The notes under the pieces were generated by a model, which made no database searches, had not been told where the DNA came from, and saw only the letters and a program-made list of their open reading frames with translations. DNA of 33,264 bases from Bdellovibrionales bacterium (GTDB taxonomy: Bacteria; Bdellovibrionota; Bdellovibrionia; Bdellovibrionales; UBA1609): contig JABSOQ010000028.1 in assembly GCA_013216195.1 (NCBI GenBank), positions 1-33,264 of the forward strand, in the 5' to 3' direction. Shown here in pieces: positions 1,881 to 19,274 of this stretch. The first letter of the stretch is position 1, and each line of letters begins with the position of its first letter. The position numbers and the translations under genes were made by a program.

Positions 1881-3230
1881 TCATTGAGTTTGCCGTTCGA
1901 GACTTTTCATTGCCTCGAGGCCCTGTATTCTGCCGAACCCGAAATCAACATCATACCCCTGGGGGCCAAGGTCTTTTGCAGTCTCAATCACGGTCGAGAT
2001 CAAAAGCTCGCTTTCGACCTCAGGATGAGCTTGCCTCAATAATGCAAAAATACCAGCGACGTGTGGGGCCGACATGGATGTACCAAGTTGCTCCCTATAT
2101 CGTCCGTTAGAACTTGCTGAGTAAATTTTAAAGCCCGGTGCCGTAAGTTCTGGCTTGTTCAGCGAAAAGTCTTGCCACTGAGCCGGGCCCACGGCGCTGA
2201 AGTACATCAAGCGGTCACTGTGCTCAGTTGAGCCGACTGAAACTGCTCCCGGGCAGCCTCCTGGTAGCCCGATCGAAGCTTTAGCCGGGCCATTGTTACC
2301 AGCTGCAAAAACAGGTATTACGCCCATATCAGCCCAGGAGGCAACAACTTCACAATAGGCCACATCTTCTGGGCTTCGTTCTGAAAATGAAGACCTCGTA
2401 CCCCAAGAGCCGTTGACGATATGAACCGAGTCGTCAGTTTCAGGATATTCATCAGGGTCAACCATCCAGTGCATAGCTTCTAGTATCTTCTCTTTACTCG
2501 ACTCGCCGCCACGATCAAAAATACGAGCCACAACGAGCATGGCACCTGGAGCTACCCCGATGGCACGGCGAGAGTGAGTGCCCCCAACAAGAGTTCCGGC
2601 AATGTGCGTACCGTGGTCAAACTCATCGGCTGGCTCTTCATTTTTTTCGGCAGAGAAGTTTTTGAAGTGAAGAACTTTGCCCTCTAGGTCGCGGTGGTTG
2701 GCTTTGATGCCTGTGTCGAGCACTCCAATTCGAACCCCCTCGCCTCTGAGCTCTGGGTACTCTTGATGAATCTGCTTGGCTCCGACCTTTTCGATTCCCC
2801 ATGCGTAGGGGTATTTGCGAGAAATCTTTGCTTCAGACTGCTCTTGCTTTTCTAGAAAAACAGGCTCATCGAGCCTTTCGACACTCTTCAAGCCTGGTAA
2901 CTCGAGTGCTTGCCTTAAGTTGTGCCGACTCAACCTCACACCAACGCCATTAATTAAGGGAAACAACTTCAATACGTTGGCATTCAACTGCGGCATAGCA
3001 GTCATCAGCCTCTTTGCAGGCAATGAGTTCGTAGCAATCAACTGACCGAGACTGGCCGGCTTAGCCAACAACTCTGGTTGCTCAAAAAGCAATAGAGTAT
3101 TGTGTGATGGGTCAGCAACAGCCGACGAAGAGTGCAGATATTCAGTTGTCGCGCGATCGACAAAAACCTCTGCCCCAGCTAGCGCTGAGCAAAACCCTAA
3201 GCAAAGAAATAGACCTGACCTTAACACCAC
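1881..3230 (-). CDS. Subtilisin-like serine protease (peptidase S8), exported
   Basis: 449 residues with a Sec signal peptide (about 1-20, Ala-Gly-Ala end). A propeptide-like region runs to about 140. The S8 catalytic core follows: Asp172 in V-L-D-T-G, His206 in D-H-G-T-H, the oxyanion Asn in the A-A-G-N-N-G stretch (about 309-314), and Ser385 in G-T-S-M-S-A-P-H. All catalytic residues are present and the length suits a single-domain secreted subtilase with prodomain. The start is GTG with a strong G-rich ribosome-binding site (complement of 3232-3240). It is divergent from the gene at 3376, with about 145 bases between them. Secreted subtilases usually degrade proteins outside the cell; in a predator the prey envelope or cytoplasm would be plausible targets, which is inference. 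Confidence 0.92.
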   Translation of the reverse strand: MVLRSGLFLCLGFCSALAGAEVFVDRATTEYLHSSSAVADPSHNTLLLFEQPELLAKPASLGQLIATNSLPAKRLMTAMPQLNANVLKLFPLINGVGVRLSRHNLRQALELPGLKSVERLDEPVFLEKQEQSEAKISRKYPYAWGIEKVGAKQIHQEYPELRGEGVRIGVLDTGIKANHRDLEGKVLHFKNFSAEKNEEPADEFDHGTHIAGTLVGGTHSRRAIGVAPGAMLVVARIFDRGGESSKEKILEAMHWMVDPDEYPETDDSVHIVNGSWGTRSSFSERSPEDVAYCEVVASWADMGVIPVFAAGNNGPAKASIGLPGGCPGAVSVGSTEHSDRLMYFSAVGPAQWQDFSLNKPELTAPGFKIYSASSNGRYREQLGTSMSAPHVAGIFALLRQAHPEVESELLISTVIETAKDLGPQGYDVDFGFGRIQGLEAMKSLERQTQ

Positions 3231-3375
3231 TCCCCCCTCCTTGAATTTTCAATAAAAATCGTTTCACAACCGCCCAAAGCTCGCAATAGATGACGCTCAG
3301 GCACCCTCGAAGAAACGGCTCCAGCAGCACCATTCAACCTGTTTTTTTGCACAACTATTGCAATTACCTACTCTG

Positions 3376-4602
3376 ATGAAGTTTATCAGTGTTCTATTGG
3401 CTCTCAGCATGTTGGCAGTGCCCTCATTCGGCACTACGGGGTCTCGCTGTGACGTTATTCTGGAGCAGATCCCAGAGACTGCAGATCTAAAGAACTCCAT
3501 TCCGATGCTTGTTGAGCGGTGGCGAGAGCTCTCATCTAGCCGGCTCAGATCATCGCTCTCGACTGAAAGTGGCCGACTGTCTCAATCCGCTGTGGCTAGA
3601 AGCATTCAGATGGATGTTTCAACGTTTTCAAAATATGCAAACAACAAGCTGCCTATGAACTGGAACCACGCCGTCAAGTTTGGTGAAGCACTTGGAGTTG
3701 ACCCCCTTTGGCTCATTGGCCAAGACTTGCTACTTGCCTACAATAGCACTCGCCATGAACTCAACCCCGTTGATATCAAGGCCTTTGCCCCTTCTCATTT
3801 CGTCAGGACTGCTACCGATGTGCTGACCCGAAGCTCAAATGCCGAGAGCGGGCAACCGCCAATCGCAGATATTGAAGCAGATCAGTTTTGCCTAGAGACT
3901 TGCCCTACAGAGGACCTCTTAAGAGAGCTTGCCGATAGAGGCTGGGACATTTCACATGTGAGATTGATTCACCCTCCCGAAAAACCCAAGACGCCAATGC
4001 AGGTGTTTTTAGAGCAAGTGCCCACTTACTCGCAAAAACGCTCTGAGCTTTACACGAGGGCTGCAGAGGGTGTGCGTTTCGGCTACACAAAAGACCCCAT
4101 CGGTGCAACTGAGCGCTACTTTCAAGATTACTTCGAACCCGCTCTTCGATTGATTTCATCAGCACCTAATTCTGAAGAGCTCAGGCTGCGCATGTACAAC
4201 ACGAATGAAATTCGGTTTCGTGATGACCACCAGGCCCACGCACGAATTGTGAGTTTCAACATTCGAATTAGGCCAACTCGATTCGCTAGAAAAGATGAAT
4301 TTCAAGATGAGTTTCAGGCCTTCACACAAAGTTTTATGAGCGAGCTCTGCGCAAGCAACCTGAGCTTTATAAGAGAACACTTCAGTTCAAATGCCATTGA
4401 GATCAACCAAGAGTTCGGCGACAGTTTCAACCGCCTGGTGCTGCTACCATTGCAATCGGATCAACATGATCAGTTTGATTTGCTAGTTGTCAGGTACTCA
4501 ACAGTCGAGAGAGGCGTAGTGTCTGCAAGTCTACTTACTCACCCTGAGATATTGGCTGCCCAATCTCGAGGAAGCCTAAGAGACCAATTGCTAGGCCTGT
4601 AG
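3376..4602 (+). CDS. Exported protein with an XRE-type helix-turn-helix domain
   Basis: 408 residues from the ATG at 3376; a TTG at 3358 in the same frame is also possible. Neither start has a clear ribosome-binding site. Residues 1-19 form a good Sec signal peptide, followed by G-S-R-C-D-V-I-L at about 22-29. Residues about 50-117 look like a Cro/C1 (XRE) DNA-binding domain: a helix with R-L-S-Q-S-A-V-A-R, the turn and recognition helix with D-V-S-T-F-S-K-Y, then a helix ending G-V-D-P-L-W-L. The remaining 290 residues are not recognised and hold a Cys pair (F-C-L-E-T-C). An HTH domain behind a signal peptide is unusual, because the periplasm has no DNA to bind. A later cytoplasmic start (Met at residue 44) would remove the paradox, but the upstream frame encodes too good a signal to dismiss. 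Divergent from the subtilase. Confidence 0.75.
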   Translation: MKFISVLLALSMLAVPSFGTTGSRCDVILEQIPETADLKNSIPMLVERWRELSSSRLRSSLSTESGRLSQSAVARSIQMDVSTFSKYANNKLPMNWNHAVKFGEALGVDPLWLIGQDLLLAYNSTRHELNPVDIKAFAPSHFVRTATDVLTRSSNAESGQPPIADIEADQFCLETCPTEDLLRELADRGWDISHVRLIHPPEKPKTPMQVFLEQVPTYSQKRSELYTRAAEGVRFGYTKDPIGATERYFQDYFEPALRLISSAPNSEELRLRMYNTNEIRFRDDHQAHARIVSFNIRIRPTRFARKDEFQDEFQAFTQSFMSELCASNLSFIREHFSSNAIEINQEFGDSFNRLVLLPLQSDQHDQFDLLVVRYSTVERGVVSASLLTHPEILAAQSRGSLRDQLLGL

Positions 4603-4792
4603 TCAGCCGCACAAAAGAATCACACGACTCGTCTCACAGCTCCAACAGATTCAAACCAATTCTTGACGAAACGCTCTGACACTTTCTTAACAAAAGTTTC
4701 TTTGGCCACCGAGTTTTGTCGACACAATCAAAACTTGCTAACAGAGCATGTTATGACAGGTCTCCCTTGCACACTAAGGCTTTCAGAATTCT

Positions 4793-4821
4793 TTGACCGA
4801 CAAAAAAAGCTCCAATAGGTT
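4793..4821 (+). promoter_or_regulatory. Possible sigma-70 promoter for the 4900 gene
   Basis: TTGACC at 4793-4798 is a near-perfect -35 box. Seventeen bases later comes TAGGTT (4816-4821), a weak -10 box. A transcript from here would have a leader of about 70 bases containing the hairpin at 4858-4880. The call rests on sequence match only. Confidence 0.3.
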
Positions 4822-4857
4822 TTTTAAACAAGAAAACAATCGTTAACAAAAAACAAA

Positions 4858-4880
4858 TGATCGGCCGAGCTGGCCGATCA
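4858..4880. promoter_or_regulatory. Perfect 9-bp hairpin or operator just before the G-run ribosome-binding site
   Basis: TGATCGGCC and GGCCGATCA are exact reverse complements separated by five bases. The hairpin ends 9 bases before the GGGGG at 4890-4894 of the next gene, so it would sit in the mRNA leader or act as a protein-binding palindrome. On the minus strand it is followed by a T-rich stretch (TTTGTTTTTTG) and would read as a terminator for antisense transcripts, but no minus-strand gene lies upstream to need one. Confidence 0.55.
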
Positions 4881-4899
4881 AAGAACTCTGGGGGACTAC

Positions 4900-5460
4900 A
4901 TGTCAATTTTTCGAAACGCGCTAGTAATTGCCTTAGCGCTTGTGGCGCAAGCTACTTTTGCTCAAGAAATGTCTGTTAAAAAAATCGCTTCGCTATGTAA
5001 AGGCCGAGATGTAGAGACTTGCAACTACCGAAATCAGTACTGGAGAATGACCTGCGAATTTCATGAAGACGGCACAGTTGAAATCAACAAAACTTGGGGT
5101 GGAAATGCTTGGACACCTGTAGTGCCTGTTGTTAGCCCCGACAAAACCATGGAAGAAGATGATCAAGTTCTTCTTATGACTCTTCTTGGTGACATCCGTG
5201 CTACCGACAATGCACCAACTGCCAGCGAGGCACACGACGACAACCTTTTCTATCAGTACGGCATTTGGACTTACGGAGTTTATGAAGAGTACAGCGCCTT
5301 AGAACACAGAGAGGGCTATGAAGAGCCATGGACAACTCGAATCGCCACAATCAACAGCTACGGCGAAGAGAAAATGGAGGGCGAATCTGCCACAGAATTG
5401 ATGGCACTTGCTAACAAGTACTGCACCTGGGATCTACTAAGACGCTCTGACGCTGAATAG
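4900..5460 (+). CDS. Exported protein of unknown function, 186 residues
   Basis: The signal peptide is residues 1-21, ending A-T-F-A. The mature part is acidic and rich in aromatic residues (Trp, Tyr). It has cysteines in L-C-K, E-T-C-N-Y, M-T-C-E-F and K-Y-C-T-W, enough for two disulfides, which supports a periplasmic or secreted location. The start is set by GGGGG at 4890-4894. A strong terminator follows directly, so this is a single-gene transcript. No family recognised. Confidence 0.8.
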   Translation: MSIFRNALVIALALVAQATFAQEMSVKKIASLCKGRDVETCNYRNQYWRMTCEFHEDGTVEINKTWGGNAWTPVVPVVSPDKTMEEDDQVLLMTLLGDIRATDNAPTASEAHDDNLFYQYGIWTYGVYEEYSALEHREGYEEPWTTRIATINSYGEEKMEGESATELMALANKYCTWDLLRRSDAE

Positions 5461-5469
5461 TTTTTTAAG

Positions 5470-5515
5470 CCTTGAAGGGCCCAACCCTCTCCGTGGCTCT
5501 TCAAGGTTCTTTTTT
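5470..5515 (+). terminator. Rho-independent terminator after the 4900 gene
   Basis: CCTTGAAGGGCC (from 5470) pairs with GGCTCTTCAAGG (5495-5506): twelve pairs, one of them G-U. A T-rich tail (TTCTTTTTT) ends at 5515. Confidence 0.85.
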
Positions 5516-5717
5516 CAGGCCCAGCTATTTGCTAAGGCCTTCAAACAGGTGACACTGCATACACGAGAACCGCATCGGTTTAATCCACTGCTCCGGCACT
5601 CACTCGACCAACCAAGTCTCCAAGTCTCCAGACCACCGTTAACTACTTGATTCTACTTAAATTTTGTGACCCCTTCTGATTGCGCAACGCATAATATTTT
5701 GGTAGTTTATTCGTTCG

Positions 5718-7502
5718 ATGAACGTCACCCAATCGGCCAAGAGCCTTCTATTCTTGTTACCTCTGATTTTGAGTGTCGCCGCTGAAACCTCCTTTGCGGC
5801 ACCTCGTGACCGTGGTCGGTGTGCAGCTGAACTAGATGAGCCTTTCCCCGAATTTATAGTTTCTCCCTCTCTCGATCATATGGAAGAAGGCTTTGCTGAC
5901 CACTGCACCGAATCTTGGGTAACCGCAACTCTGGAGAAACTAAAGGGCCATATTGAACACGCTCGTAGACTTAGATTTTCAATGCGAAAAGCTGTGCAAA
6001 ATCAGCGCAGGCTATGGCAACAAGAAGACGCTGAAAGATTAGCCACTCCCTATAATTTCAGCGAACTCACATCTAGGATCATTCACACATACCGAGAAAT
6101 CGACACAAAGAGTTCGGCAAGAGGCCGTGTGCCGCCTGAATTGATTTTCGATTTTGTTATCGACGCCTTAAACTGGTTTTCACCTTTTCCCAGTAGACAT
6201 CAAGACAGTATTCAGCCAGTGTTCGCTAGATCGAAAACTCCGAGCCTAGACATGCACGGCTGGAACCCGGCCCGGTTTCCCACCGAACTTCCAACACCAG
6301 ACTCAGAGCAAACACTTGTCGCAAACGCGACACCCAGGCAGCTCGTTCTAAACCCTAGCCTGAGAGAAAGGGTTGTCTACAACTACTATGAAATTGACAA
6401 AATTAGCCTTCGCCCGGTTCGACTGACAAAAGATAAAAGCTTTGATCACAGCCACAAACCAAACTTTTTGACTGAATTTCAAAACGACATTGGGCCCAAC
6501 TCGTATCGCCTTGTCGAAGTTGATGGTGTACCCATGCTTGCCGGCCCGCCTTTGAAAACCGAGAACGGCCGCCTTATCTGGAGTGAGCAACTAGCAGAAA
6601 CGGCTCGCACCTGGAATACTATAAACCCCTTTTTCAAGTTTTCTATTGGCCAGACAACAGGCGGCGAGTTCAGAGTTCTCTCGCCTTTGTTTAGAATTCG
6701 GTCACTTCGAAACCAAGTGCAATTTAGCCCCGCTGATATCAGACAGCTCGATTCAGCTCTGCTAAATCTAGCTAAACAAAGAGCATCAGACAGCCAATTT
6801 CATGTTGGCTTGGCTGAGAGGCAACATATGCTTGGTCAGCTTTTGCACGATCACTACCGAGTAGCCAACTTTGGCCCATTCGGTAACTCGTTCTCTAGTT
6901 TTGGCATGACTCCTCTTGGCTACTACACTCAGCGCAATCACGTTCTATTCAGTGAAGATTCTCTTTTTCGTTTTTCAAATGTCGTAAAAGCTCAACTGCT
7001 TTTTGCAATGAGTGTTGAAGATCGCTCTAGACATCTTCAGTATCTTGTCGATGAAGACCGATTTCGCGATTTGTTTGAAACCGTTTATTGGCTACAACAT
7101 GAAAGCTTGAGCTTTGGTCGATTTCGAACCGATATAAGAAGACCTGCCACACCTGGCTTTCAGGTACACACAGGCAATAAGACCTCACTGGTCGCTCGTG
7201 AATGGATCACTGAAAAAAGTCTGATCAAGCACCACAAAAAACACGGTGGTCAAGACGAGTTAAACCTAGCGACTACTACCGAATATGAGAGCGCAGCCAA
7301 AGAGTTCTTTGAGGCTGCAGACAACACCCAAATCTCAATTGAAGCCACAAACGGGCAAGTTATCATAAAGTATGACTTTGCTACCCGAGAGTTTGGTGTG
7401 GTTACGTTAGGTGGCAAGATGATTACCTACTTTCAACTCGATGAATCTCAAGTGCCAGTAGATGAGTTTCATGACCGAATCGGAGAGGGCATATTCAGGT
7501 AG
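5718..7502 (+). CDS. Exported multidomain protein with a C-terminal RNase-toxin-like (BECR-fold) domain
   Basis: 594 residues. The signal peptide is residues 1-27, followed by G-R-C-A-A-E-L with Cys35. Residues about 40-480 are not recognised and are rich in Arg, Phe and His. The last 110 residues (about 484-594) carry a pattern I associate with toxin domains at the ends of polymorphic toxins and phage proteins. These are K-H-H-K-K-H-G (504-510), an E-Y-E-S-A-A-K-E-F-F helix (522-531), Y-D-F-A-T-R-E-F-G-V-V (552-562) and M-I-T-Y-F (568-572). That family has the Barnase/EndoU/ColicinE5/RelE (BECR) fold and usually cuts RNA. The assignment is by eye. No immunity gene is evident; the next gene is also exported. 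There is no clear ribosome-binding site before the ATG at 5718. An exported RNase would make sense if delivered into another cell. Confidence 0.7.
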   Translation: MNVTQSAKSLLFLLPLILSVAAETSFAAPRDRGRCAAELDEPFPEFIVSPSLDHMEEGFADHCTESWVTATLEKLKGHIEHARRLRFSMRKAVQNQRRLWQQEDAERLATPYNFSELTSRIIHTYREIDTKSSARGRVPPELIFDFVIDALNWFSPFPSRHQDSIQPVFARSKTPSLDMHGWNPARFPTELPTPDSEQTLVANATPRQLVLNPSLRERVVYNYYEIDKISLRPVRLTKDKSFDHSHKPNFLTEFQNDIGPNSYRLVEVDGVPMLAGPPLKTENGRLIWSEQLAETARTWNTINPFFKFSIGQTTGGEFRVLSPLFRIRSLRNQVQFSPADIRQLDSALLNLAKQRASDSQFHVGLAERQHMLGQLLHDHYRVANFGPFGNSFSSFGMTPLGYYTQRNHVLFSEDSLFRFSNVVKAQLLFAMSVEDRSRHLQYLVDEDRFRDLFETVYWLQHESLSFGRFRTDIRRPATPGFQVHTGNKTSLVAREWITEKSLIKHHKKHGGQDELNLATTTEYESAAKEFFEAADNTQISIEATNGQVIIKYDFATREFGVVTLGGKMITYFQLDESQVPVDEFHDRIGEGIFR

Positions 7503-7607
7503 CCTGACTCGACTTCGTTGCACCTCGGTTTGACCTGCTCGTTCACTAATGCTCACCTTAACAGGTTAGAAAGCTAAAAAGTTTGCTTGATGAATGAGGG
7601 GGATTCT

Positions 7608-7937
7608 ATGAGAGCTATTTTGATCGCTATTTTAATGAGTGTTTTTTGTCTAGCAGCCGGGGCTGAAGTTACACAACATCGCATCGAGCCCGCTGCTGAT
7701 ACGAACGTGGCAGAACAATTCAGACAAAGCCTTACAGCAAGATCTAGCACTGTCGAAATCTGCAACTACAGTGACTCTAGGAACTCACTTAAAGCCTGCA
7801 ACGACCGGCTCTCGACTCTATCACTGTTATCGAATGAAAATGTTCAGATCACAGGCTCGTGCAGAAGGTCATCTGAAAGCATTTACTGCGCAGATTTGAG
7901 AGCTATTGTGACGGTCTTTAAAAACTCAGACAATTGA
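7608..7937 (+). CDS. Small exported protein, 109 residues, unknown
   Basis: The ATG at 7608 is preferred over one 21 bases upstream because the G-run (7598-7602, GAGGGGG) lies at proper distance. The signal peptide is residues 1-19, ending A-A-G-A. The mature part has four cysteines in two close groups, consistent with disulfides. It lies 105 bases after the RNase-toxin-like gene on the same strand. A cognate immunity role is conceivable, but immunity proteins to RNases normally stay in the cytoplasm, so the signal peptide argues against it. Confidence 0.72.
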   Translation: MRAILIAILMSVFCLAAGAEVTQHRIEPAADTNVAEQFRQSLTARSSTVEICNYSDSRNSLKACNDRLSTLSLLSNENVQITGSCRRSSESIYCADLRAIVTVFKNSDN

Positions 7938-7957
7938 CAGATCTGAGACCAAAAACA

Positions 7958-7985
7958 AAAAGGCCTAGTGAAAACTAGGCCTTTT
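7958..7985. terminator. Bidirectional terminator between convergent genes
   Basis: AAAAGGCCTAG (7958-7968) and CTAGGCCTTTT (7975-7985) are exact reverse complements around a six-base loop. With the A-rich left flank and T-rich right arm it can stop transcription from both the 7608 gene and the minus-strand gene ending at 8011. Confidence 0.88.
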
Positions 7986-8010
7986 AAAAATTCAAAATTT
8001 GCGAAAGCGG

Positions 8011-8460
8011 CTACTCTTCTATTGAACAGACAAAGCAGGCATGTGGGCCACCATCACCGGTGCCGGCAAAAAACACAGAGCTGTCAGGGTAGGCCTCATA
8101 CTTGCTCCCACACTGCTCCATGAAGTAGTCAGAACCTGCGATAGCTTCTTCTTTTGAGGCGATAAATGCCGTGTAACGATAGAAATAACCATTCGTCAGT
8201 TTATCTTCTCTGACGCCGCCCTCTTCGTTTGTGTACACAGCATCGAAAACTTCAGTGGGTGCCCCACAGTTAGAGCAACGTTGAACTTTTTCGATAAATG
8301 AGAGCGTCACATCGTCCCAGTCAATTGTGCGATCTGAACCGTCAAGTGGCAGAATCTCACAAACAATGCTTTCTCCGCTCTCAACCACCTCATCAATGAT
8401 TGATGCGTTTGCCGAAAAATTACCAATTAGTAATGTAACTAGAATCAAAACTGACTTCAT
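8011..8460 (-). CDS. Exported Cys-rich protein, 149 residues, unknown
   Basis: The signal peptide is residues 1-19, ending A-N-A. The mature protein is acidic with six cysteines, including R-C-S-N-C-G in the middle and C-F-V-C near the C-terminus. These could form disulfides or bind a metal; CxxC pairs are also seen in thiol redox proteins, but no thioredoxin fold is visible. The ribosome-binding site is strong and canonical (GAGGAGG, read on the minus strand just right of 8460). No family recognised. Confidence 0.78.
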   Translation of the reverse strand: MKSVLILVTLLIGNFSANASIIDEVVESGESIVCEILPLDGSDRTIDWDDVTLSFIEKVQRCSNCGAPTEVFDAVYTNEEGGVREDKLTNGYFYRYTAFIASKEEAIAGSDYFMEQCGSKYEAYPDSSVFFAGTGDGGPHACFVCSIEE

Positions 8461-8604
8461 TTTGGCCTCCTCAGTTTTAAAAGCTAGACAAATACGACCA
8501 AAGCCACAAGAGATACACTTGGTATTGAAAAAATCATGCGCAGAATTGAAAGCCTGAACATATGAGGTTTACCACCTTCTGCCCAGTCGAAGCTGGCACA
8601 GTCG

Positions 8605-9879
8605 GTGAACATAGATATGATTATGAACTCGTCGACCTTATTAAATCGCTCTGCAAGACGCTTAAATGTCTGGAGTTTTTGCGGTTTAGTGACAATTTTG
8701 AGCCTAGTCTTGCCGCTGGCATCTGTTGCTGATGAAGTCGGGTTTTGTGCTTTCGAGCTAAAGCGCCCTGCTCTAGTAATGCCCAAACAGCTATCTGAAC
8801 TCAAAGAGTTCAACCTAGCCACTCAAAATATTGCTCGCAACCTCGAGCACCTTGATTTGCTACACCCCTCAACCGTATTCAACAAAGCACACACAGTAGA
8901 CGTCGCCGTCGAGTATACAATCAGCCAACATTGGGAGCTTTTTCTGCAACTACCAGGTGGCCGAGACCTCCTGATGATTTTGTCTGACCCATTCTTTTTG
9001 ACTGTCCCACGTGAGTTCTTACAGAGAGAGCTCCAAGATTGGGCTCTAGAGTTTATGGGGGGTACAGAGCTCATTTTCAACTCTGATCTAGAAATACTAG
9101 CCATGTCTCACGCCGCTGGAGTCATTCCTGGAGACATATATTTTGGCTGGATCAGTGAAGGAGCTCTACCAATTATCGACATTCATGATCTCATGGGTCA
9201 CATGGCCATCTACACTGATTCTGTGTTACGTGAGCAGATCAAGAGTTTAGCCGGTTTACTTGCAAAGTCGACTGGAGAAGAGAGCAAGCGATTAAACTTA
9301 AAGGTGTGGCACGCGATGGGCGAGAAGGTTCCTTTTTTCTATACCAAAGAAGATGGAACTCCAACGATGACAGCTATCGGGGGGCCTGTGATTACATTCC
9401 GGCCTAATATTACCAATGTCACTCGCAAGCATTATCAATCTCAAGACCCTGAACCAGGAGGTTCAGAATGGGAAGAGTTTGAGCTTGGCTATGTCTCTTA
9501 CATCCAAGACTTCGGGGCGATAAAAAAAGTTATTGAAATGGCCAAAACGAATTACCCCGACGACCCAAGGCTAGAGGCTTTTTTAGAAAAGTACGAACGA
9601 CTAGTAACAGAGACAGGGGTGTTCTCAAGTCTCGATGACTTTCACACAACTTTGAACAAGAGTGTGAAAAGAGCTGCCCGCCTGCGCGTGGCCGAAATTC
9701 GCAATAGCTCATCAGACTTTCAAGACTTTTGGGTAAGACTTCGAAGTCAGATCGATCAAACCAACCCACAGACTCCTGTTGAGAAATACCTGAGCCTGTT
9801 GTCTCCTGATTGGCACAGACCACTGATGCAGATCAACATGGAGTTTGAGTTGCTGTATTATCAGCTAAGAGATCGATAA
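8605..9879 (+). CDS. Exported protein with post-signal Cys motif and an H-D-L-M-G-H motif
   Basis: 424 residues from GTG 8605; ATGs at 8617 and 8623 are alternatives and none has a clear ribosome-binding site. After a long basic N-region the hydrophobic core ends A-S-V-A near residue 42. It is followed by V-G-F-C-A-F-E-L with Cys48, the only cysteine of the mature protein. His194 and His199 lie in I-D-I-H-D-L-M-G-H-M. The spacing and residues recall the two iron-binding histidines of aromatic amino acid hydroxylases (P-D-x-x-H-[ED]-x-x-G-H), but nothing else was confirmed, so I do not assign that family. The rest is helical and charged. The gene stands alone on the plus strand. Confidence 0.7.
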   Translation: MNIDMIMNSSTLLNRSARRLNVWSFCGLVTILSLVLPLASVADEVGFCAFELKRPALVMPKQLSELKEFNLATQNIARNLEHLDLLHPSTVFNKAHTVDVAVEYTISQHWELFLQLPGGRDLLMILSDPFFLTVPREFLQRELQDWALEFMGGTELIFNSDLEILAMSHAAGVIPGDIYFGWISEGALPIIDIHDLMGHMAIYTDSVLREQIKSLAGLLAKSTGEESKRLNLKVWHAMGEKVPFFYTKEDGTPTMTAIGGPVITFRPNITNVTRKHYQSQDPEPGGSEWEEFELGYVSYIQDFGAIKKVIEMAKTNYPDDPRLEAFLEKYERLVTETGVFSSLDDFHTTLNKSVKRAARLRVAEIRNSSSDFQDFWVRLRSQIDQTNPQTPVEKYLSLLSPDWHRPLMQINMEFELLYYQLRDR

Positions 9880-10076
9880 ATCAACTGATCTGTTCTGGCA
9901 AAACCTGGCAACAAAAAACCTGAATGTCACCCGGCTAAAGTACCCTAGACATTGAGCTACCTTTCGTCTGCATTTATGCTCTAAAGCAGCCACCATGGCT
10001 ATCACAGTGTACAATTAAGGTTGTTGAAACACTGGTTCTCGACCGGCTTGTTCACTAGTCAACCTGAAAGGTGCCT

Positions 10077-11597
10077 ATGAGATTTTCGACACTACTTCTA
10101 TGCTTGGTAGCCCTTACCTCTGTGTCCACTTTTGCGAAACCGGCCAAAAAAGCGATTCCCTCTTCACTGAAATACATTTTTGATTTGAAGCAAGAAGAGC
10201 ACTTGTCAGATTTTGAAGAAGAGTTTGCGGGCACAGCTTCAAAGCTTGGCCTTGAAGTGGCCCCAATGAACATTATGCTAGCAGTGATACCAGTTCACTA
10301 TTACGCAACTTCAAGAGATTTCAAAAAGCAGGTCTTACTCATGATAGGCGGTCGTACACCGACCAAGTACGACAATTCAGATTTCAAAGTGAAAAACTTC
10401 ACACTTCACAATCGAAAATATCGAGGCAACTACTACGCTATCTTGATGAAAGGCTTTTCTGATAAAGAAAAAATGCGCATCTTCAACAAGCTGAAATCCA
10501 TCGATCTTGGCGAGAAAAGTAGCGCCTTCAATTTCTTGATCAACCAAGCCCACGCTCAAGAAACCCGAGTCGAAGGGCCCAGCTCTGCAGCTGGCGAAGA
10601 CAGCCCAGGTTTTTGGGGCTCGCTGGGCCGAGCATTTGTTGATTGCGGCCAAGGCATACTTGATGGTGCCAATGCCTTACTCGTAGACCCCTTCGTCGAT
10701 TTCTATGGTGCCGCTCACCTCTGGATTACAGACTCAGAACAGTTCTGGGCGAACTCAGCTGCTCAAGCATAAGCCATAGGTGACTTCGCCTCAGGCGTAT
10801 ACAACGACCCACTCGGGGCCATGGCAAGGGGCAGAGATGCTATCGGGCAAACCACTGCAGCAGATGTAAACCGAATCGGCTGCTCATTGGTAGGCGGCGG
10901 GGGTACCGCAGCTTTTATGAACAGAGGAGTTCGTGGAGCGATGGCAACTGCACAAACGCAAGGTGCCGTGGGGGTCTTGCCTTCAATCGCTCAAACCAAG
11001 GCCCGAGCCCTCGCAACAGCAGAGTCTCTTGGTATCAACGTCGGCAACAGAGCTGCAGTGTTAAGAATGATCGACGATGAAGTTGCTGAATTCGCAAGGC
11101 AAGGTCGCTCTTACCATAATGGGTACGGTGCAGGCTCAGCCTATATTGACCGAGTCATGGCAAGAATAATGGAAGCCTTCGAAAGCACCCACGAGATTGG
11201 AAGTCGGCTTTATCGGCAAGACCTCCAAGCTCATAGACTAAGAAGGCTGCAAGAGATGCGGGCCAGAGCAGACTCAGACTTGATTCAAATAATTAGGCAA
11301 AATATTGAACCCGAGCACGGCTGGAGTGACTTCTACAATGCCTGGTACCAGAGAACAGTTACAGAAGGTGCCGAAACCCTTGTTGGAGGCAGCCAGACAA
11401 ACTTGGCCTTCATACCTGGCCCGACACCTGGCACAGTGCAAGTGTACGGCTATTCTTGGCTAGACGACCCTGTTGCCGCACTAAATGGTCAAGCATCTCG
11501 CCCATTAAATGTCAGCGACGTTGTCGTTCAACAAGCCAGGCGCAACGAAGGTGTCTCGGCCTACCCGCTTAGGTTTAATGCCATAATCAGTGAGTAG
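10077..11597 (+). pseudogene. Long exported-protein gene split by an in-frame ochre stop
   Basis: The frame from ATG 10077 (AAAGGTG just upstream; GTG 10071 is also possible) runs to the TAG at 11595-11597 with only one interruption, TAA at 10770-10772, codon 232. The downstream part stays in the same frame, and its first possible start is 48 bases beyond the stop, so the two parts look like one protein of about 506 residues. The signal peptide ends S-T-F-A at residue 20. The stretch around the stop is Gly/Ala-rich and continuous in style on both sides (A-N-S-A-A-Q-A, stop, A-I-G-D-F-A-S-G), resembling linker or pre-toxin regions of large secreted proteins. The C-terminal half is helical and basic. 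Not recognised. CAA to TAA would explain the lesion. Confidence 0.7.
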
Positions 11598-11767
11598 AAA
11601 GAAGGGACTGGCTTTCTGATGCCAGGTTTAGAATCGTTCGGAAATGACATATTCTCTATCCGCTAACCCTGGTGATGCTAGCTTTGGGGGTTGAAGCCCT
11701 CCTGATCCGTGTTGTTGTTTACATGGTTTTTTGATATCCCTTTTACATGCCTACTAGGGGTGGTATT

Positions 11768-12808
11768 GTGGGACTGAATACGCTCATTACTACAGCAAAA
11801 GCTTTGGCCTTTTTTGTTATAACAATTGGGTTTTCATTAGCGGCACAGGCCGTTGAATCAAAAAGTGATTTGAGGGGCATGCTTCCCTATGTATCGAAAG
11901 TCAAAAGCCAACAAGGTCGAAACACATGCACCGTATTTGCCCTAACCGCTGTGTTAGAGAGTCTCTACATGCGCGATGAAGGCGCCTCCAGTATAGACTT
12001 CTCAGAGGAGTGGCTACAATATCTGGCAGCCGGCTCAACTGCTTCTGGCGGAGCAAAAGGCTCAATGGTCAGCATTAACTTTAATGCTCTAAAACGACAT
12101 GGAGTCACTACCGAGCAGCTAATGCCGTTCACTAAGGGAACCTGGTCAGATGATCCCGCTCACCCGCAGGCACGAGTCATTGAGCAATATTGCGGAGATC
12201 TCTCGGGGCTAGAGTACACGCGGTGCTTGTTTGGCAAAAGAAGCCCTCGGTACCTCACTATGTCAGACAACCAACTTCGAGGCTTACCCGGGGGGCGGCA
12301 GTTTTCAACAGCTAGGCAAGGTGGAAGTCAGTATCAGTCATTTGTGAACTCTTTAAGAATCAATGTGGTCAGCAATCCCACCACAATAAAACACTACCTC
12401 GCTCAAAAGACGCCTTTGACCTTAGAGGTCAACGTGCATTACGGCAGCTGGCACCATTCCGCCGGAGAAAAATACGGGATCGATATCGATAAGAACTCTT
12501 ATAACAGAGGCATTGTGACCTACCCTGAGCGAGGCTCGGTCGACCGTTACCAATCTGATCGGCATCCTGCCCGGCATGCTGTACAAGTGATTGGCTATGA
12601 CGACGATGTTCAAGTTACCTACACGAAAAAAATGCGCGACGGTTCAATGCGAACTTTTACTCGCACTGGGGTCTATTATATTAAAAATTCTTGGGGCAAA
12701 AAGTTCGGCAAGAACTTTCGCTTCGGCCGATCAAGAATCCCAGGACTCGGAATCATCACTCAGGACTACGCTCACCACCTGGGGAAATTCTCAGTTGTGA
12801 CTCGCTAG
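11768..12808 (+). CDS. Exported papain-like cysteine peptidase (C1 superfamily)
   Basis: 346 residues from GTG 11768, chosen because AGGGG at 11756-11760 is at the right distance; an ATG at 11747 has no such site. The signal peptide is residues 1-28 (A-A-Q-A). The catalytic triad is visible: Cys54 after the oxyanion Gln region (Q-Q-G-R-N-T-C-T-V-F-A), His270 (R-H-A-V-Q-V-I-G-Y), and Asn307 in K-N-S-W-G. Unlike classical papains it has no long inhibitory propeptide: the catalytic Cys comes only 25 residues after the signal. An insertion of about 100 residues sits between Cys and His. The likely role is periplasmic or secreted proteolysis. A terminator follows. Confidence 0.88.
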   Translation: MGLNTLITTAKALAFFVITIGFSLAAQAVESKSDLRGMLPYVSKVKSQQGRNTCTVFALTAVLESLYMRDEGASSIDFSEEWLQYLAAGSTASGGAKGSMVSINFNALKRHGVTTEQLMPFTKGTWSDDPAHPQARVIEQYCGDLSGLEYTRCLFGKRSPRYLTMSDNQLRGLPGGRQFSTARQGGSQYQSFVNSLRINVVSNPTTIKHYLAQKTPLTLEVNVHYGSWHHSAGEKYGIDIDKNSYNRGIVTYPERGSVDRYQSDRHPARHAVQVIGYDDDVQVTYTKKMRDGSMRTFTRTGVYYIKNSWGKKFGKNFRFGRSRIPGLGIITQDYAHHLGKFSVVTR

Positions 12809-12848
12809 AGCACGCTCTTTCACTTCGAGTCCTGCTTAGACAAAGAAA

Positions 12849-12874
12849 AACCACCCGGTGGGTGGTTATTTTTT
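12849..12874. terminator. Bidirectional terminator for the peptidase gene and the tRNA
   Basis: AACCACCC and GGGTGGTT form a perfect stem around GGT. A run of six T (12869-12874) follows on the plus strand, and on the minus strand the stem is followed by TTTCTTTG. It lies between the peptidase stop and the 3' end of the minus-strand tRNA. Confidence 0.85.
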
Positions 12875-12950
12875 GGTAGGGGCTGCAGGACTCGAACCTG
12901 CGATCCTTCGGTTATGAGCCGAATGCTTTAACCAACTAAGCTAAGCCCCC
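12874..12950 (-). tRNA. tRNA with CAT anticodon (Met elongator, or Ile2 if lysidine-modified)
   Basis: Read on the minus strand this is a 77-base cloverleaf with encoded CCA. The acceptor GGGGGCT pairs with AGCCCCT (first pair G-U), the D-loop holds TAGTTGGTTAA, the anticodon arm is TTCGG-CTCATAA-CCGAA, and the T arm is GCAGG-TTCGAGT-CCTGC. Anticodon CAT can be elongator methionine or isoleucine-2; I cannot separate these with certainty. Initiator is unlikely: the anticodon stem lacks the three G-C pairs and the acceptor begins with a G-U pair rather than the C-A mismatch. Confidence 0.93.
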
Positions 12951-13186
12951 AAGCTTTGAGCACCAAAAATTATTAGAATCTGGCCAGCTTTACAAGTGGT
13001 TTAAATGTCTGCTGGAGAGCAAAATCAACTTTATTGACCACAACCCAGCTCGGGGTACAGGCTCCAAGTCTTTGATTTTAGTAATTATTTTACTGACACC
13101 CGACCAGGCCTTAGACACCAAATCAACCTTGTGCTCTCTCCTCGCGGGCCTCAAAAGCGTCTATTAGGCACCCCCTTTGCTACTAA

Positions 13187-14795
13187 GTGGGGCGGGAGCT
13201 TTTTTCGATCTGGAATATTCGCTTTGCCTTGGGGCTGTTTCTTTTTGGTACATTCTCTAGCCATTCGCTGGCAAGCCAGAACTCGTGCGCTGTCGACACA
13301 CCTATCGGAGCACATGAGATGAGCCAACCAAGAACAAGTACCTGACATTGGCGATCTGCTTTGCTGCATGCCCGATGATTACAAAAGAAATGTCATGATC
13401 GCCCACACAAGCTTGGCAGGGCAACCTGGCAACCCGCATTCGCCAAGACTGCTGTTTCGTGCAGACCGGGCAGATAACGGCCTTTTTACTAGCCCTATCG
13501 TCTTCTCCGTTAATGGCGGTTACGACACTCCCCCAGTAGTCTCAGAAGATGGAACTTACCCCAACCCAGACGATTTTGAAGAGTCTGAACTTCAGCCTCA
13601 AGGTAACAGTTTAGAGATCGTGATGGCCGAATCTGGTAGACCGCTTGAGTTTTTTGATATGCACGCAAACGACAGCTTGAGTATGCAAAGAAACCCACCT
13701 CTATGTGTTGGCTGTCACTCTGCTGGTAACCCCGATGGCTATGAAGAGCTGCATATGATTTTTCATGCTGACCCGAACTAGCCGAACTCCGTGGGTGGTG
13801 CAAACTTCTGTGATCCTAAGCAAGATCAACTCGTGCGCTCCGCCTCTGAGCAAGCAATTAATGCCGTCAAAAACAACCCACGCTTTCGCTGTGTTGATCT
13901 GTCTAGAGTCGAGCCCCAGACTGAGGAAGCGCAAGTCGTTGATAAAAGAGAAGGTGCCTTTCAAATTTTGGCTGAGACTGACGCCGCTTTCAGACAGTTG
14001 AACGAAGAACGAATTCACCGAGACTTGTTCGCCAACCCGAACTGGAACCGCATGAAGTACGCCGTAATTGGCAGGCTTCAATGCGAAAGCCACGCCCTCA
14101 GGCTCAGTGATTATATACCCGAAGAACAGATCGCTGCAATGAGGCCAAACCTTGAGCTATCAACTCAAATGCTTCAGACAAACCCTCTTCAAAACGACGC
14201 CGCACAAGCCCTTGCTGTCGAGCTACCTTATGAAAGAAAGCGCAGAGAGTACTTAGATGAGTTGTTAGAGAACCCCGAACAGCTTGCTGCCGATGGCTAC
14301 CTTCCTGGTGACGGCGCCTTTGCTTGTGGCCCACTTGAAGACGGAGGGCTTATTGAGTCTTTTGTTGATGGCTCCCACCCCAATAGCCAGACAGACCCTC
14401 TGCTAAACCGAATTGCCTTTGACAGCACCATTCGTGGTTGCCCTGGCGTTCACTTTGGCATTGACCCCTTGTTAAGGTTTTTCGTTGAAGGGCATGGGGG
14501 CACAACAGAGCATTGGCACAAAACTCATGTCGGTGGCAGAGTTGCTACTGATTTTCAGTTTCGAAACATAGCTCCTATTCTTCGGCAAGAACAAGCAAGT
14601 GGTGCAGACCCACTTCTAGTCGGTCTACTCGAGTCGCTACCACGATCGAATCAAAGACTGTGTGAATATGTAAAGGAGACTTCATTAAATGTTCACAGCA
14701 GTGAACAGCCAGAAAGAGTACTTGCTGCCGATCAGCCTGGCGAAGTCATAAACGCTGAGGTTTTAGATGAGGCTGGAGATCAAGAGTCCAGATAA
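13187..14795 (+). pseudogene. Exported CxxCH-containing protein gene with a frameshift and an amber stop
   Basis: From GTG 13187 a clear signal peptide ends S-H-S-L-A near residue 29, then S-Q-N-S-C. That frame closes at TGA 13343-13345. The frame one base ahead continues after 13322 with convincing protein (P-D-I-G-D-L-L-C-C, and so on), so one extra base near 13322 (CATGAGATG-A-GCC) would explain the break. The new frame is interrupted again by TAG at 13779-13781 and then runs to TAA at 14793-14795. A repaired product would have about 535 residues. It has one c-type heme motif, C-V-G-C-H, about 80 bases before the amber codon, and many other cysteines. An exported c-type heme protein of unknown role is likely. 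GTG 13187 has no good ribosome-binding site. Two lesions in one gene favour true decay. Confidence 0.7.
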
Positions 14796-15022
14796 TTAGA
14801 GCCTTTACGCAAAATTTGAGTGCTATGCTCAAAGAGATTAGCTCTCGTTCAAAAAAAACAATTGAGACCTGCTACCGCAAACTTGATTTATGTCATGCCC
14901 GAGTGAAGTGATCTTTTCATAGCTTCTCTGTTTTACAAAGTGGCCCACCTAAAGAATCTTCAACCACCCTTTTCAATCTGAGATCAAGTGATACAAATGT
15001 GTGCATAACTTTGGGGGTATAC

Positions 15023-15472
15023 ATGAAAACTCTAATAATTCTTATTCTCGCTCTATCTGCATGCTCGAGCTTCGCCGAGGTTCAGCTTGTTACAGTTGAT
15101 CAAGTTTTTGAAGCTTTTGATGTTAACTACGACACCGATTGGGGTGGTTACAACGATGATGGCATCGAGTGCAGTTGGTCTTTTTATTATGACGACTTAG
15201 AAGAGGAACATACCGGTGAGTACATTGTGAGCTATGTGATCGATGGTCGCTCTCGAATTCATCGACTGGTGAAGATCAAACAAAGCACCCATTACTGGCA
15301 CACTACTCTTTCTGATGGCTCTGAAAAGTACGTTGAAGAGATTGGCCCGGCTGGCCCGGCTACCCACCCAACTGTTCTTATCTTGAAGCAACTCGGTGAG
15401 GGCAAGGTCAGGCTCGAAGCCAAGAAGGGCGAAGACGATCTTGGAGCCCACTGCATAGTCGATGAGGCTTAA
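15023..15472 (+). CDS. Small exported protein or lipoprotein, 149 residues, unknown
   Basis: ATG 15023 is preferred to an in-frame ATG at 14999 because GGGGG at 15013-15017 lies just before it. The N-terminus is a short hydrophobic stretch with L-S-A-C at residues 11-14, a canonical lipobox, so it may be a lipoprotein. Alternatively signal peptidase I could cut after S-F-A at about residue 18. The mature part is acidic with two further cysteines, many aromatic residues and alternating hydrophobic residues suggestive of beta strands. It is convergent with the minus-strand operon ending at 15509. Confidence 0.75.
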   Translation: MKTLIILILALSACSSFAEVQLVTVDQVFEAFDVNYDTDWGGYNDDGIECSWSFYYDDLEEEHTGEYIVSYVIDGRSRIHRLVKIKQSTHYWHTTLSDGSEKYVEEIGPAGPATHPTVLILKQLGEGKVRLEAKKGEDDLGAHCIVDEA

Positions 15473-15508
15473 CTCCTTGAAGCTGTTCGCCCTAAAGAGT
15501 TACGAAGC

Positions 15509-16507
15509 TTAATCGATAGGATCTTCTAGCTGAAACACACCTTGAGTCGGCGATTCATCTCTGAGCCTGAGGGTTCTCATTCGAGGGCCCTCAACATCGT
15601 TGCTTAGCTTTCTCAAAATCACAAAGTCTTCGGTGCCCTCATTCACCGCCAAAACCTCGAGGCCAGTCACGGCATTGAGATATCGCTCCACAGATATCAG
15701 CTCAGTATCCCCAATCATTCGGTGAGCGTATTCGTGGTCTGCGGCGAATTCAGCTGGCTCAATCATAGGATCAGTTGGAGCCAACACTACAAATTGCGGA
15801 GTGAACATGCCGTACTTTTCAAGAGAAGTGAAAATCAAACCACCTGGCTTCGTCATTCGAGCCAGTGTTCTCAAAGATCTAGCCGGGTCTCCACTGTGAT
15901 ATTGAGCGATTCCATAGAGATCCATGGTGATGTCTGCCACCTCCCACAAACCGTTCTCGGCAAGCTCATCTGGGCTCATCAGAACCCAGTTGCCAGTTTT
16001 GTAGTCTATCAGGCCATTCTCAATCTCTAGGTTCATCTGGGTGTAGGCACCGAGCTCATCAAGGTAGTTGCTGTTGCCTCTTCTCTCTGGCATCGGCGGC
16101 TTGGCATAGGAGCCCGCAATGAACTTTGGAGCATTGTGACCTTTCGCCTGGGCCCCTGCAGCCATCTGAATCAGAGCTGTTGCCATGCCCGCACTAGGGT
16201 CAAGGGCCACCTGCCCATTGCCCAACTCCCAAACCAATTGCGACAAGGTCTTACCATCAAGCTTAGGAAAAGATCGATCATACTCATGCACCCTACGGTC
16301 TGTGCGAAAGGCGTTGCGCTCAAGCTGCGCAGTCAAGAACCTGGTTTCTGCCATTTCATCGGGGCAAGAGCCTGGCGCTGTATCTTGGTCTGCAAACACA
16401 TTAGGGCCAGTCAGTACTGAGATAAAAACCAAAGCTAAGCCAGACAGCATTAGATCAATACTGAATCTCAAAACAATTGGGCTCTCACCACCTTCTGAAC
16501 TAAGCAT
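15509..16507 (-). CDS. Exported protein with a class I SAM-methyltransferase-like fold
   Basis: 332 residues, last gene of a three-gene operon and 22 bases after the previous one. An uncharged hydrophobic signal core (about 19-39, ending N-V-F-A) is followed by P-G-S-C with Cys48, the only cysteine. Methyltransferase-like signs are a motif I region V-A-L-D-P-S-A-G-M-A-T (about 100-110), and a later block with D-L-Y-G-I-A-Q-Y-H (196-204) followed by L-A-R-M-T-K-P-G-G-L-I-F (215-226). These are the usual positions of motifs IV to VI. The glycine motif is altered (D-P-S-A-G instead of D-x-G-x-G). SAM is a cytoplasmic cofactor, so an exported enzyme of this type would act in another cell or have lost catalysis. 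The start has AGAGGT upstream. Confidence 0.68.
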   Translation of the reverse strand: MLSSEGGESPIVLRFSIDLMLSGLALVFISVLTGPNVFADQDTAPGSCPDEMAETRFLTAQLERNAFRTDRRVHEYDRSFPKLDGKTLSQLVWELGNGQVALDPSAGMATALIQMAAGAQAKGHNAPKFIAGSYAKPPMPERRGNSNYLDELGAYTQMNLEIENGLIDYKTGNWVLMSPDELAENGLWEVADITMDLYGIAQYHSGDPARSLRTLARMTKPGGLIFTSLEKYGMFTPQFVVLAPTDPMIEPAEFAADHEYAHRMIGDTELISVERYLNAVTGLEVLAVNEGTEDFVILRKLSNDVEGPRMRTLRLRDESPTQGVFQLEDPID

Positions 16508-16529
16508 ACTTACCTCTAACAGCCCATGG

Positions 16530-17366
16530 CTAATCTTGCAGCCTTCTCAACATATCATCAATCTCACTTTGACTTGGGCCCTCTTCACTTCTCGGAACAG
16601 TTTGCCTGTCAACGAGGTCATCATTGCTTGAGAACGAAACTCCCTGCATGTCTGGGTCTGCCGCTTCTGCCAATGGAGGCACAGGCAAAGTGCCAAGCTC
16701 AAAAAGGCGATCTAAAAATGAATAGAAAAAGTCAGCTGTGATGTCATGATCGCCCACAGCAAGTTCATCTACTGAGTAAAGATGCATCACCGACCCATCT
16801 TCTAGATCTGACTTTGAGTATTCAAAGTTATGCGAATCAAGAAACTCAAGAACATCTGTCTCAGCAATACCTGGGTACTCGACTTCATTAAAGTACTCAC
16901 CGTTAGACAAGATCTTTTGTAGGTCAGCAGATGCCGTCGCTAGCATCTGCCGGGGTACCTCACTTCGCTTTCGAACACCTCTCACACCATTAAACTGCTT
17001 CAAGTAAAAATGAACTCGAATCAAATCAGATTCGGGGTCTACTTCACGTGATGTAGAAGCGATCCATCTGTTTCCGTCAGCTTCAACTAGCATCCAAACG
17101 TAGCCAGGCATACCCTTCATGCCTGGCACTTTGGTGCGGTTAGACCCATTGGTTTGATTGTAGAGATGGGTGAACCTAAATTCGCCTTGCGAGACATCTT
17201 CTAATTCGCGGATTGCTGAATTCATCGAACCAGCGGTTGGCATCCCAGCATGAGCCAACACCTCAAGAGGCCTATTATTGAGTGTAATGAAACACTGCCC
17301 CCTAGGAGTACCATAGGCCACTGCAGCACTTAGACTTAGAATCAAGATACAGAGAGACTTCAACAT
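16530..17366 (-). CDS. Exported protein with post-signal Cys motif, middle gene of operon
   Basis: 278 residues. The signal peptide is residues 1-19 (A-V-A-Y-G), then R-G-Q-C-F-I-T-L with Cys25, the only cysteine of the mature part. The middle has beta-like segments (G-Y-V-W-M-L-V-E-A, W-I-A-S-T). The C-terminal 50 residues are acidic and probably disordered, ending in a short amphipathic helix (S-E-I-D-D-M-L-R-R-L). The start ATG has TTAGGAG at good spacing and begins seven bases after the stop of the preceding gene, so the two are co-transcribed and probably translationally linked. Family not recognised. Confidence 0.78.
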   Translation of the reverse strand: MLKSLCILILSLSAAVAYGTPRGQCFITLNNRPLEVLAHAGMPTAGSMNSAIRELEDVSQGEFRFTHLYNQTNGSNRTKVPGMKGMPGYVWMLVEADGNRWIASTSREVDPESDLIRVHFYLKQFNGVRGVRKRSEVPRQMLATASADLQKILSNGEYFNEVEYPGIAETDVLEFLDSHNFEYSKSDLEDGSVMHLYSVDELAVGDHDITADFFYSFLDRLFELGTLPVPPLAEAADPDMQGVSFSSNDDLVDRQTVPRSEEGPSQSEIDDMLRRLQD

Positions 17367-17373
17367 CGGGCTC

Positions 17374-19107
17374 CTAACTGTTTATCACTGTAATAATGAT
17401 CACAGTCATCAGTATGGTGTCAGTGGTCTCTTCGATTATCTCTTCGACGAGATCAATTGCTGTGTCTTTGGTATCATCAGCGCCTTCATCTTCGATGCTA
17501 CCGGAGCCGGAACCAATGCCATACAGCTGCCGGCGAATTCTCAGAATCTCGAGAAGGTCAATCACGTCTTGGGCTTCAACCGAGGTTGTTCTGTACACAC
17601 GGTCGTCGAGCTCGTTCATCGCCAGACGAGTCTCACCCAGTGTGAAAGGTATTCGACGAGAAAGATAAATGGCCTCACCAATTGTCTTTTCGTTGGCAAT
17701 TCGAATCTGATCCCACATAAATCGACTCTGATCTCTCATTTGATCGACTGTGGCTCCTTCTCTCTCCATGACTTCAGCCAATAAGATACTGCCACCCTCG
17801 TCATTTCGAGTACGTCTGTAGACCGCCTTGGCGTTCTCAGCGAGGGTTTTCACTCTGCCAAGGTCTTCATCGACCTTTAGCGAGAGAGTCACTAAAAGAA
17901 TCGCACCTGCGATTTTCTTGCTGATGCCAACATCATGAATTACCCCTACAGCAGCTCTGCCTGTTTCGAGATTGGCATCAAAGTCTCCACCCTTAAGTAA
18001 CGAATAAGAAAATAGAAAAGGCGCACAGGCTCCCGACCAAAAGCCCACAAGATCTTCTGCTTTGTTGTACTTGGCTTCATACTCAGAGAAGATCGCCTCA
18101 TAGTTCGACTCGTTTATTTGAATGTTCTCCCCTTGCATATTGCGAATCTTAATATGCCCAAGCATGCTGTTTAAAAACAGCATGTAGTACATGCGGTCTC
18201 CACCAACACGTCGTGTGGCCAATCTGTAAATCTTGGTCATCACGTCGACACTTATGCCTAAGGTCATCATCTCATAGGCCAGATCTGTGGCATTGTCAGG
18301 AGTGATCCAGCTAGCACCATTCAGCTCTTTGACTTTTTCAATGGCGAGCTGAATGTGTTCACCTTTATCAATATCGAGGTCCAATTTATCTTGTCTTTTA
18401 AGATCAAGAGCATATCGGTAAGCTGTCTTCACGATATCAATTCGATTGGCGTTGCTAAAACTCCAGCCACTCATTTGGTCGTAGGCCATCAAGAACTCGT
18501 TTACCAATTCAACAGCCCCCTCAGTGCCATAATCATCAATATCTACCACTCGGCCTTCAATGGCAGTGTCGACATCTGAAAGCCTACGACTCTTCTCACG
18601 CTCCCATTTTTTCATACTTCTTCTAAACTGACCGTTACCAACGGCATGAATCTCAACAGAGCCACTCATCTCATTTTCAATCTCTGCGTACAAGTGAACA
18701 GCACCGTTCGAAGTCTTGAAAAGATACAAGCTAAGGCCATTGCCCATCTTGTGAGAATGAGTGTTCGCTGAATCTAAGAACATTGACATGCCTCGATCGT
18801 CCCAACCACCACGAGTAAAGGCATAGGTGGTGTTGATGGAATTCGTCTTGAGTGCCGATTCAACATTCATCAAAAGCGAGGCTGGCCCTGAAGCATTTCG
18901 AACCAGGCCATTGTACCTACGAGAGCTAAAAAGGGTGCTCAACCAATTGCTGGTAATCAGCTTCGGCTGCCTTGTCCTCACAGCTTCAGTTTGCCTCGTT
19001 GAGCGCAATTCAAACTTGCAAGTCAGTGCCTCAGCAGATGTTGAAATGATAAAAAGTAGCACAACGAAGGCCCTGCCTAAGGCCATGCAGCTAGATGGGT
19101 TGCTCAC
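17374..19107 (-). CDS. Large exported protein with post-signal Cys motif and hydrophobic C-terminal tail
   Basis: 577 residues from GTG 19107, chosen because GGGAG lies eight bases upstream (minus strand); a longer frame to 19194 would add a poor N-region. The signal core is about 11-27 (S-A-E-A), then L-T-C-K-F-E-L with Cys30. The body is mostly helical and charged with one other cysteine (S-G-A-C-A). The C-terminus has a Gly-Ser stretch, an acidic stretch and then a very hydrophobic tail rich in Ile, Val, Leu and Thr over the last 20 residues. It is the first gene of the three-gene operon running left to 15509. The hydrophobic tail could insert into a membrane or act as an exit signal. Not recognised. 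Confidence 0.75.
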   Translation of the reverse strand: MSNPSSCMALGRAFVVLLFIISTSAEALTCKFELRSTRQTEAVRTRQPKLITSNWLSTLFSSRRYNGLVRNASGPASLLMNVESALKTNSINTTYAFTRGGWDDRGMSMFLDSANTHSHKMGNGLSLYLFKTSNGAVHLYAEIENEMSGSVEIHAVGNGQFRRSMKKWEREKSRRLSDVDTAIEGRVVDIDDYGTEGAVELVNEFLMAYDQMSGWSFSNANRIDIVKTAYRYALDLKRQDKLDLDIDKGEHIQLAIEKVKELNGASWITPDNATDLAYEMMTLGISVDVMTKIYRLATRRVGGDRMYYMLFLNSMLGHIKIRNMQGENIQINESNYEAIFSEYEAKYNKAEDLVGFWSGACAPFLFSYSLLKGGDFDANLETGRAAVGVIHDVGISKKIAGAILLVTLSLKVDEDLGRVKTLAENAKAVYRRTRNDEGGSILLAEVMEREGATVDQMRDQSRFMWDQIRIANEKTIGEAIYLSRRIPFTLGETRLAMNELDDRVYRTTSVEAQDVIDLLEILRIRRQLYGIGSGSGSIEDEGADDTKDTAIDLVEEIIEETTDTILMTVIIITVINS

Positions 19108-19274
19108 GTTCTGTTCTCCCGATTTACATTTTCGATTTCTTAACCAATGAGTGGTGTGCAAATTTGCGACCAAAATAATGATCCTCAAATCCAACAGATA
19201 GAAACCAGGCTTTAATTTGCAGTGGCTCTTGGCAATTTCTGCAGCAAAAAGACAAAACGGGCCCGCTGTGGAGC

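Follow-up and report, generated by a model that had tools for sequence, protein, structure and literature searches.

A predicted exported orphan protein with a phage CI-like helix-turn-helix domain, and a class of sole-cysteine leaders, in a Bdellovibrionales genome

The window analysed here is the whole stretch of 33,264 nucleotides from a Bdellovibrionales bacterium (contig JABSOQ010000028.1). Its gene at 3376–4602 on the forward strand encodes an orphan protein of 408 amino acids, in which a predicted export signal is followed by an XRE helix-turn-helix (HTH) domain. The 408-codon frame is unbroken, and its codon usage is coding-like along the full length. The gene belongs to a region (3376–19194, roughly 16 kb) that lies downstream of rpoD and consists almost entirely of genes for exported orphan proteins, six of them with a leader cysteine. 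Two exported proteases adjoin the orphans, one subtilisin-like (1881–3230) and one papain-like (11747–12808), and a protein with a CVGCH haem-type motif (13368–13781) lies beside a partner ORF (13791–14795); all of these were recognised by eye. By DnaG comparison, the nearest named relatives were metagenome-assembled genomes of the Bdellovibrionales (39–47% identity), an order known for its predators.

Residues 1–19 (3376–3432, forward strand) form a predicted Sec-type signal peptide. The N-terminus reads MKFISVLLALSMLAVPSFG followed by TTGSRC. A single lysine and some 14 hydrophobic core residues lead up to a plausible signal-peptidase-I-like cleavage site, with Cys25 beyond it. Signal peptides were called throughout with our own simple heuristic instead of SignalP; together with in-frame codon usage, this heuristic placed an n-, h- and c-region at the presumed true start. 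No lipobox ([LVI][ASTVI][GAS]C) was found in the 408-aa protein, whose residues 22–25 are G-S-R-C, preceded by FGTT. Because the sole charge ahead of the core is a lysine and the core is short, the positive-inside rule would keep the HTH out of the cytoplasm even with an uncleaved signal. As far as can be predicted from sequence, these results support that the protein leaves the cytoplasm through its signal peptide.

The HTH domain (residues 49–117; 3520–3726, forward strand) was identified by profile, sequence and fold comparison. Two profiles of transcription regulators matched residues 51–117 (phrog_8, E = 8.3e-5; phrog_4, E = 1.1e-4), and Pfam HTH_31 (0.0069) and HTH_26 also matched the protein, both under the cut-off. 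When the HTH fragment alone was compared with PDB sequences, all four matches were HTH proteins and three of them were phage CI proteins (best E 0.03). Structure prediction had been proposed as a check of this domain, and the model of residues 40–134 was indeed an HTH with five helices (AF2, single sequence, pLDDT 62). Its fold matches were almost all HigA, XRE proteins and the P22 and lambda repressors, with a best Z of 7.3; since such Z-scores are moderate, the fold comparison serves to back up the profile matches and would not suffice by itself. The recognition helix region was predicted at residues 81–90 (VSTFSKYANN; 3616–3645, forward strand) from the alignment to CI 6tri and the helices of the model. 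This stretch aligns with the phage CI repressors (TP901-1 CI and its kin; PDB 6tri, 5a7l, 3zhm), as does the closing '-LGV-x-x-WL-x-G-x-D' stretch, and the fold also matches. These comparisons indicate that residues 49–117, approximately, are a real Cro/C1 (XRE) domain with phage CI repressors as its nearest relatives. Phage CI proteins begin with the HTH and are cytoplasmic, whereas the 408-aa protein puts a signal peptide and leader ahead of it and ends in a C-terminal part unrelated to that of the repressors. The presence of a Sec signal and an HTH in one protein, which was the starting claim of the sequence-only reading, was supported for both elements.

The C-terminal region (residues 132–408, about 275 residues; 3769–4599, forward strand) contains Cys172, Cys176 and Cys325. 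No recognisable relative or fold was found for it, and its AF2 model (pLDDT 46) was unusable.

A shared cysteine motif had also been claimed as support for real export. We surveyed 1.74 Mb (42%) of the source genome and called 426 signal-peptide proteins that have no additional membrane segment; exactly one non-lipobox cysteine occurs in 66 of these. This sole cysteine lies 8–31 residues past the hydrophobic core in 28 of the 66 proteins (expected, 6.2). The set was picked only by the number and place of cysteines, and lipobox cases were removed. Position counts were made on these 28 proteins and one extra shorter protein. Of the 29, 26 have a hydrophobic residue at +4 from the cysteine, which is leucine in 19 (p 7e-14), and 11 have glutamate at +3 (p 2e-6). 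Blind alignment of 36 otherwise unrelated members yielded the consensus A.....CxxEL, and no consensus of the same kind was seen when 98 other signal-peptide proteins were aligned. Our initial motif guess, the strand-like C-x-[FILV]-x-L, was dropped for C-x-x-E-L, which was derived without bias from the sole-cysteine proteins. The sole cysteine after the signal peptide, in the form CxxE[LM], is a strong genome-wide class. Bacterial lipoproteins likewise have one cysteine close to where the signal peptide ends, but the class cysteine lies several residues past a signal-peptidase-I-like site, without the L-[AS]-[GA]-C context.

The members were not significantly clustered along the genome overall (p 0.42). 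A search of 36 genomes with the leader profile gave nothing better than 0.01 beyond the source genome, in a search that missed one known example. Small samples from other genomes contained none or nearly none of the class and were too few to judge whether it is confined to this lineage. We found no description of the CxxE[LM] leader in the open-access papers searched. Two paralogue pairs were noticed. In L124:5605–6687 and L124:7739–8851 the bodies have, by eye, strongly diverged and the leader cysteine is kept, and the same was observed for the window protein at 8605–9879 and L053:9670–11094, whose diverged bodies match with E 7e-6 over residues 101–261.

The 408-aa protein itself appears to fit this class only loosely and is not counted as a proven member. 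Cys25 (3448–3450, forward strand) lies within 8–31 residues past the core and has a leucine at +4 (C-D-V-I-L), a loose match to CxxE[LM]. It is one of four cysteines (25, 172, 176 and 325), and the class-profile score of the CDVIL leader ranked 36 of 154, a level equalled by 25% of background cysteines. The shared motif of the sequence-only reading is thus real across the genome and sharper as a sole-cysteine CxxE[LM], but it describes this protein poorly, given its three further cysteines and a score that about a quarter of background cysteines reach. Elsewhere in the window, exported orphans with a leader cysteine lie on the forward strand at 5718–7502 (CAAEL, 594 aa) and 8605–9879 (CAFEL, sole cysteine). 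On the reverse strand, the protein at 15509–16507 is exported with leader CPDEM, its sole cysteine, and a very weak methyltransferase match; exported orphans lie at 16530–17366 (CFITL, sole cysteine) and 17374–19194 (CKFEL, strong class score).

Most class members matched nothing in our searches, but those recognised include several with domains whose usual place of work is the cytoplasm. L121:14750–16048 of the source genome (C124) encodes an exported protein with leader CDFEL and an OmpR/CreB winged helix (E 8.6e-5), and is a stronger example of a DNA-binding domain in the class than the 408-aa protein. A second similar-looking region was seen by eye after its winged helix. Two exported OlsF/GlsA-like acyltransferases (L179:14802–15932 and L108:11622–12794) carry the NH...D motif, each with a sole leader cysteine, and a leader protein on L167 matched a methyltransferase at 9e-4. 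L102:170–865 encodes an exported HNH-type protein (Cas9d HNH match, 4e-7) whose sole cysteine is in the leader, without leucine at +4. In G009, a genome of the same family, L079:2279–3853 combines a signal peptide and the leader CLVLF with an RNB exoribonuclease domain (2.7e-60). This protein keeps the D-x5-D-x-DD catalytic aspartates (IDGKETIDRDD) and has no other cysteine, and it exists beside a separate ordinary RNase R in the same genome. No counterpart at comparable closeness was found among the rest of the 59 relatives.

Envelope-type proteins are also found in the class, namely an M74 murein endopeptidase, an S9 peptidase and a cupin. For the 98 control signal-peptide proteins, the 25 commonest of 232 NCBIfam families were of the envelope, for example OmpA, GltC and TraB. 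Two further leader proteins were noted, an exported repeat protein with leader CPALL and a very weak leucine-rich-repeat match (L098:10863–11816; 0.066), and an exported 278-aa orphan of G009 with leader CKFIF as its sole cysteine (L073:8623–9459). A RelE-like C-terminal domain in the latter was read by eye and had no tool support; an ATP-grasp domain in L178 and a P-loop in L105:7775, also read by eye, were supported by neither PDB nor Pfam. The shared cysteine tag, together with 'inside-the-cell' domains on exported proteins, suggests that the cargo may be meant for another cell.

If translation started at Met44 (3505), the protein would be an ordinary cytoplasmic XRE regulator with an accidental signal-like stretch, as the sequence-only reading had allowed. 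The in-frame ATG at 3505 sits exactly ahead of the HTH, and no clear Shine-Dalgarno sequence precedes 3376; the ribosome-binding sequence before 3505 is no better. Codon usage backs the start at 3376. Codons 3376–3504 score 0.036 in this frame, which is coding-like, versus −0.66 and −0.34 in the other two frames. This score falls at the 35th percentile among the first-43-codon segments of signal-peptide genes, and 3232–3375 is not coding-like. Of 4682 internal in-frame methionines in proteins that lack a signal peptide, 50 resemble the start of one, and signal likeness with C...[LM] arises by chance in just 4 (0.09%). The later start is disfavoured by these results, and we regard it as improbable. 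Start sites could not be compared across orthologues, because none was found in the 59 relatives; genome_contigs and viral_contigs gave none either, and tblastn against phages gave matches only at E above 1. L002, a radical-SAM-like protein, was rejected as a chance match. This lack of orthologues would also fit a decaying or chimeric ORF without function, in which a signal leader was recently fused to a prophage repressor fragment or joined to it in the assembly. Such an origin is about as improbable as the later start: the frame is intact and coding-like from end to end, and the neighbours and the rest of the class, although likewise orphans, follow one common pattern. It is highly improbable that the hydrophobic N-terminus anchors a membrane-bound regulator with its HTH in the cytoplasm. 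RodZ, a membrane-anchored XRE protein, gives a precedent for such an arrangement, but its HTH precedes the membrane segment and the HTH here comes after it; moreover, Lys2 and the short core predict an inward N-terminus and an outward HTH.

The main rival accepts export and keeps the protein in the periplasm, at the surface or in the medium, where a reused HTH fold would bind proteins, ligands or extracellular DNA. The five-helix XRE fold can act as a scaffold, and the four cysteines, C172-x3-C176 among them, would suit an oxidising compartment in which disulfides form. The envelope-type enzymes among the leader proteins (M74 endopeptidase, S9 peptidase) also speak for it. On the other hand, the helix 2–3 stretch retains the CI pattern (LSQSAVARSIQMDVSTFSKYANNK), which is expected if DNA binding is still under selection, and several of the other leader proteins have domains related to nucleic acids or cytosolic cofactors. 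We consider this rival unlikely on balance, though a serious one. The sequence-only reading saw no use for a Cro/C1 domain in the periplasm, which is an argument and not a proof.

Our preferred reading, to which we give slightly less than an even chance, is that the 3376–4602 protein is a Sec-exported effector with the DNA of another cell as its probable target. Its signal peptide would take it out of the cytoplasm. We group it, if only loosely, with an apparently lineage-specific group of secreted orphans in this genome, many of which have a lone-cysteine C-x-x-E-L and several of which carry cytoplasm-type domains. Transport across the outer membrane could be the task of a type II secretion system, for which GspD and GspE genes are present and scored over the cut-off. 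After entry into a prey or host cell, the protein would bind DNA through its CI-type HTH and act on transcription or on the chromosome through its C-terminal part of about 275 residues. Delivery into another cell is consistent with the cytosol-type domains of other class members. Several points weaken the effector reading: the leader of this protein scores no better than background and is accompanied by three more cysteines, the C-terminal part showed no recognisable fold, and no orthologue was found to attest conservation.

Nucleomodulins and translocated DNA-binding effectors are secreted bacterial proteins with a DNA-binding domain for the target cell. The 3376–4602 protein may resemble them as a secreted DNA-binding protein for use in a target cell, but has a Sec signal instead of a type III, IV or VI signal. 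A broader proposal is that the lineage sends tens of unrelated proteins through Sec with a lone-cysteine C-x-x-E-[LM] tag, which would route them into the cytoplasm of another cell in a PEXEL- or RXLR-like manner. The cargo would include HTH and winged-helix proteins, a nuclease, and enzymes that transfer lipid or methyl groups. We hold this proposal to be doubtful. In the PEXEL effectors of Plasmodium and the RXLR effectors of oomycetes, the signal peptide is followed by a short motif common to unrelated cargo (PMC1464399, PMC4740378). The CxxE[LM] class has the same layout of a short post-signal motif on otherwise unrelated proteins, but is bacterial and uses C-x-x-E-[LM] with the only cysteine of the protein; the likeness concerns motif layout and not host delivery.

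A 2023 review (PMC10225642) counts among the open questions how Bdellovibrio gains access to the contents of the prey cytoplasm. Sec-exported DNA-binding, nuclease and transferase proteins with a common cysteine leader would provide concrete candidates, and a tag that can be mutated, for this question. For this gene alone, an exported phage-type repressor domain, if true, would stand out among secreted DNA-binding proteins.
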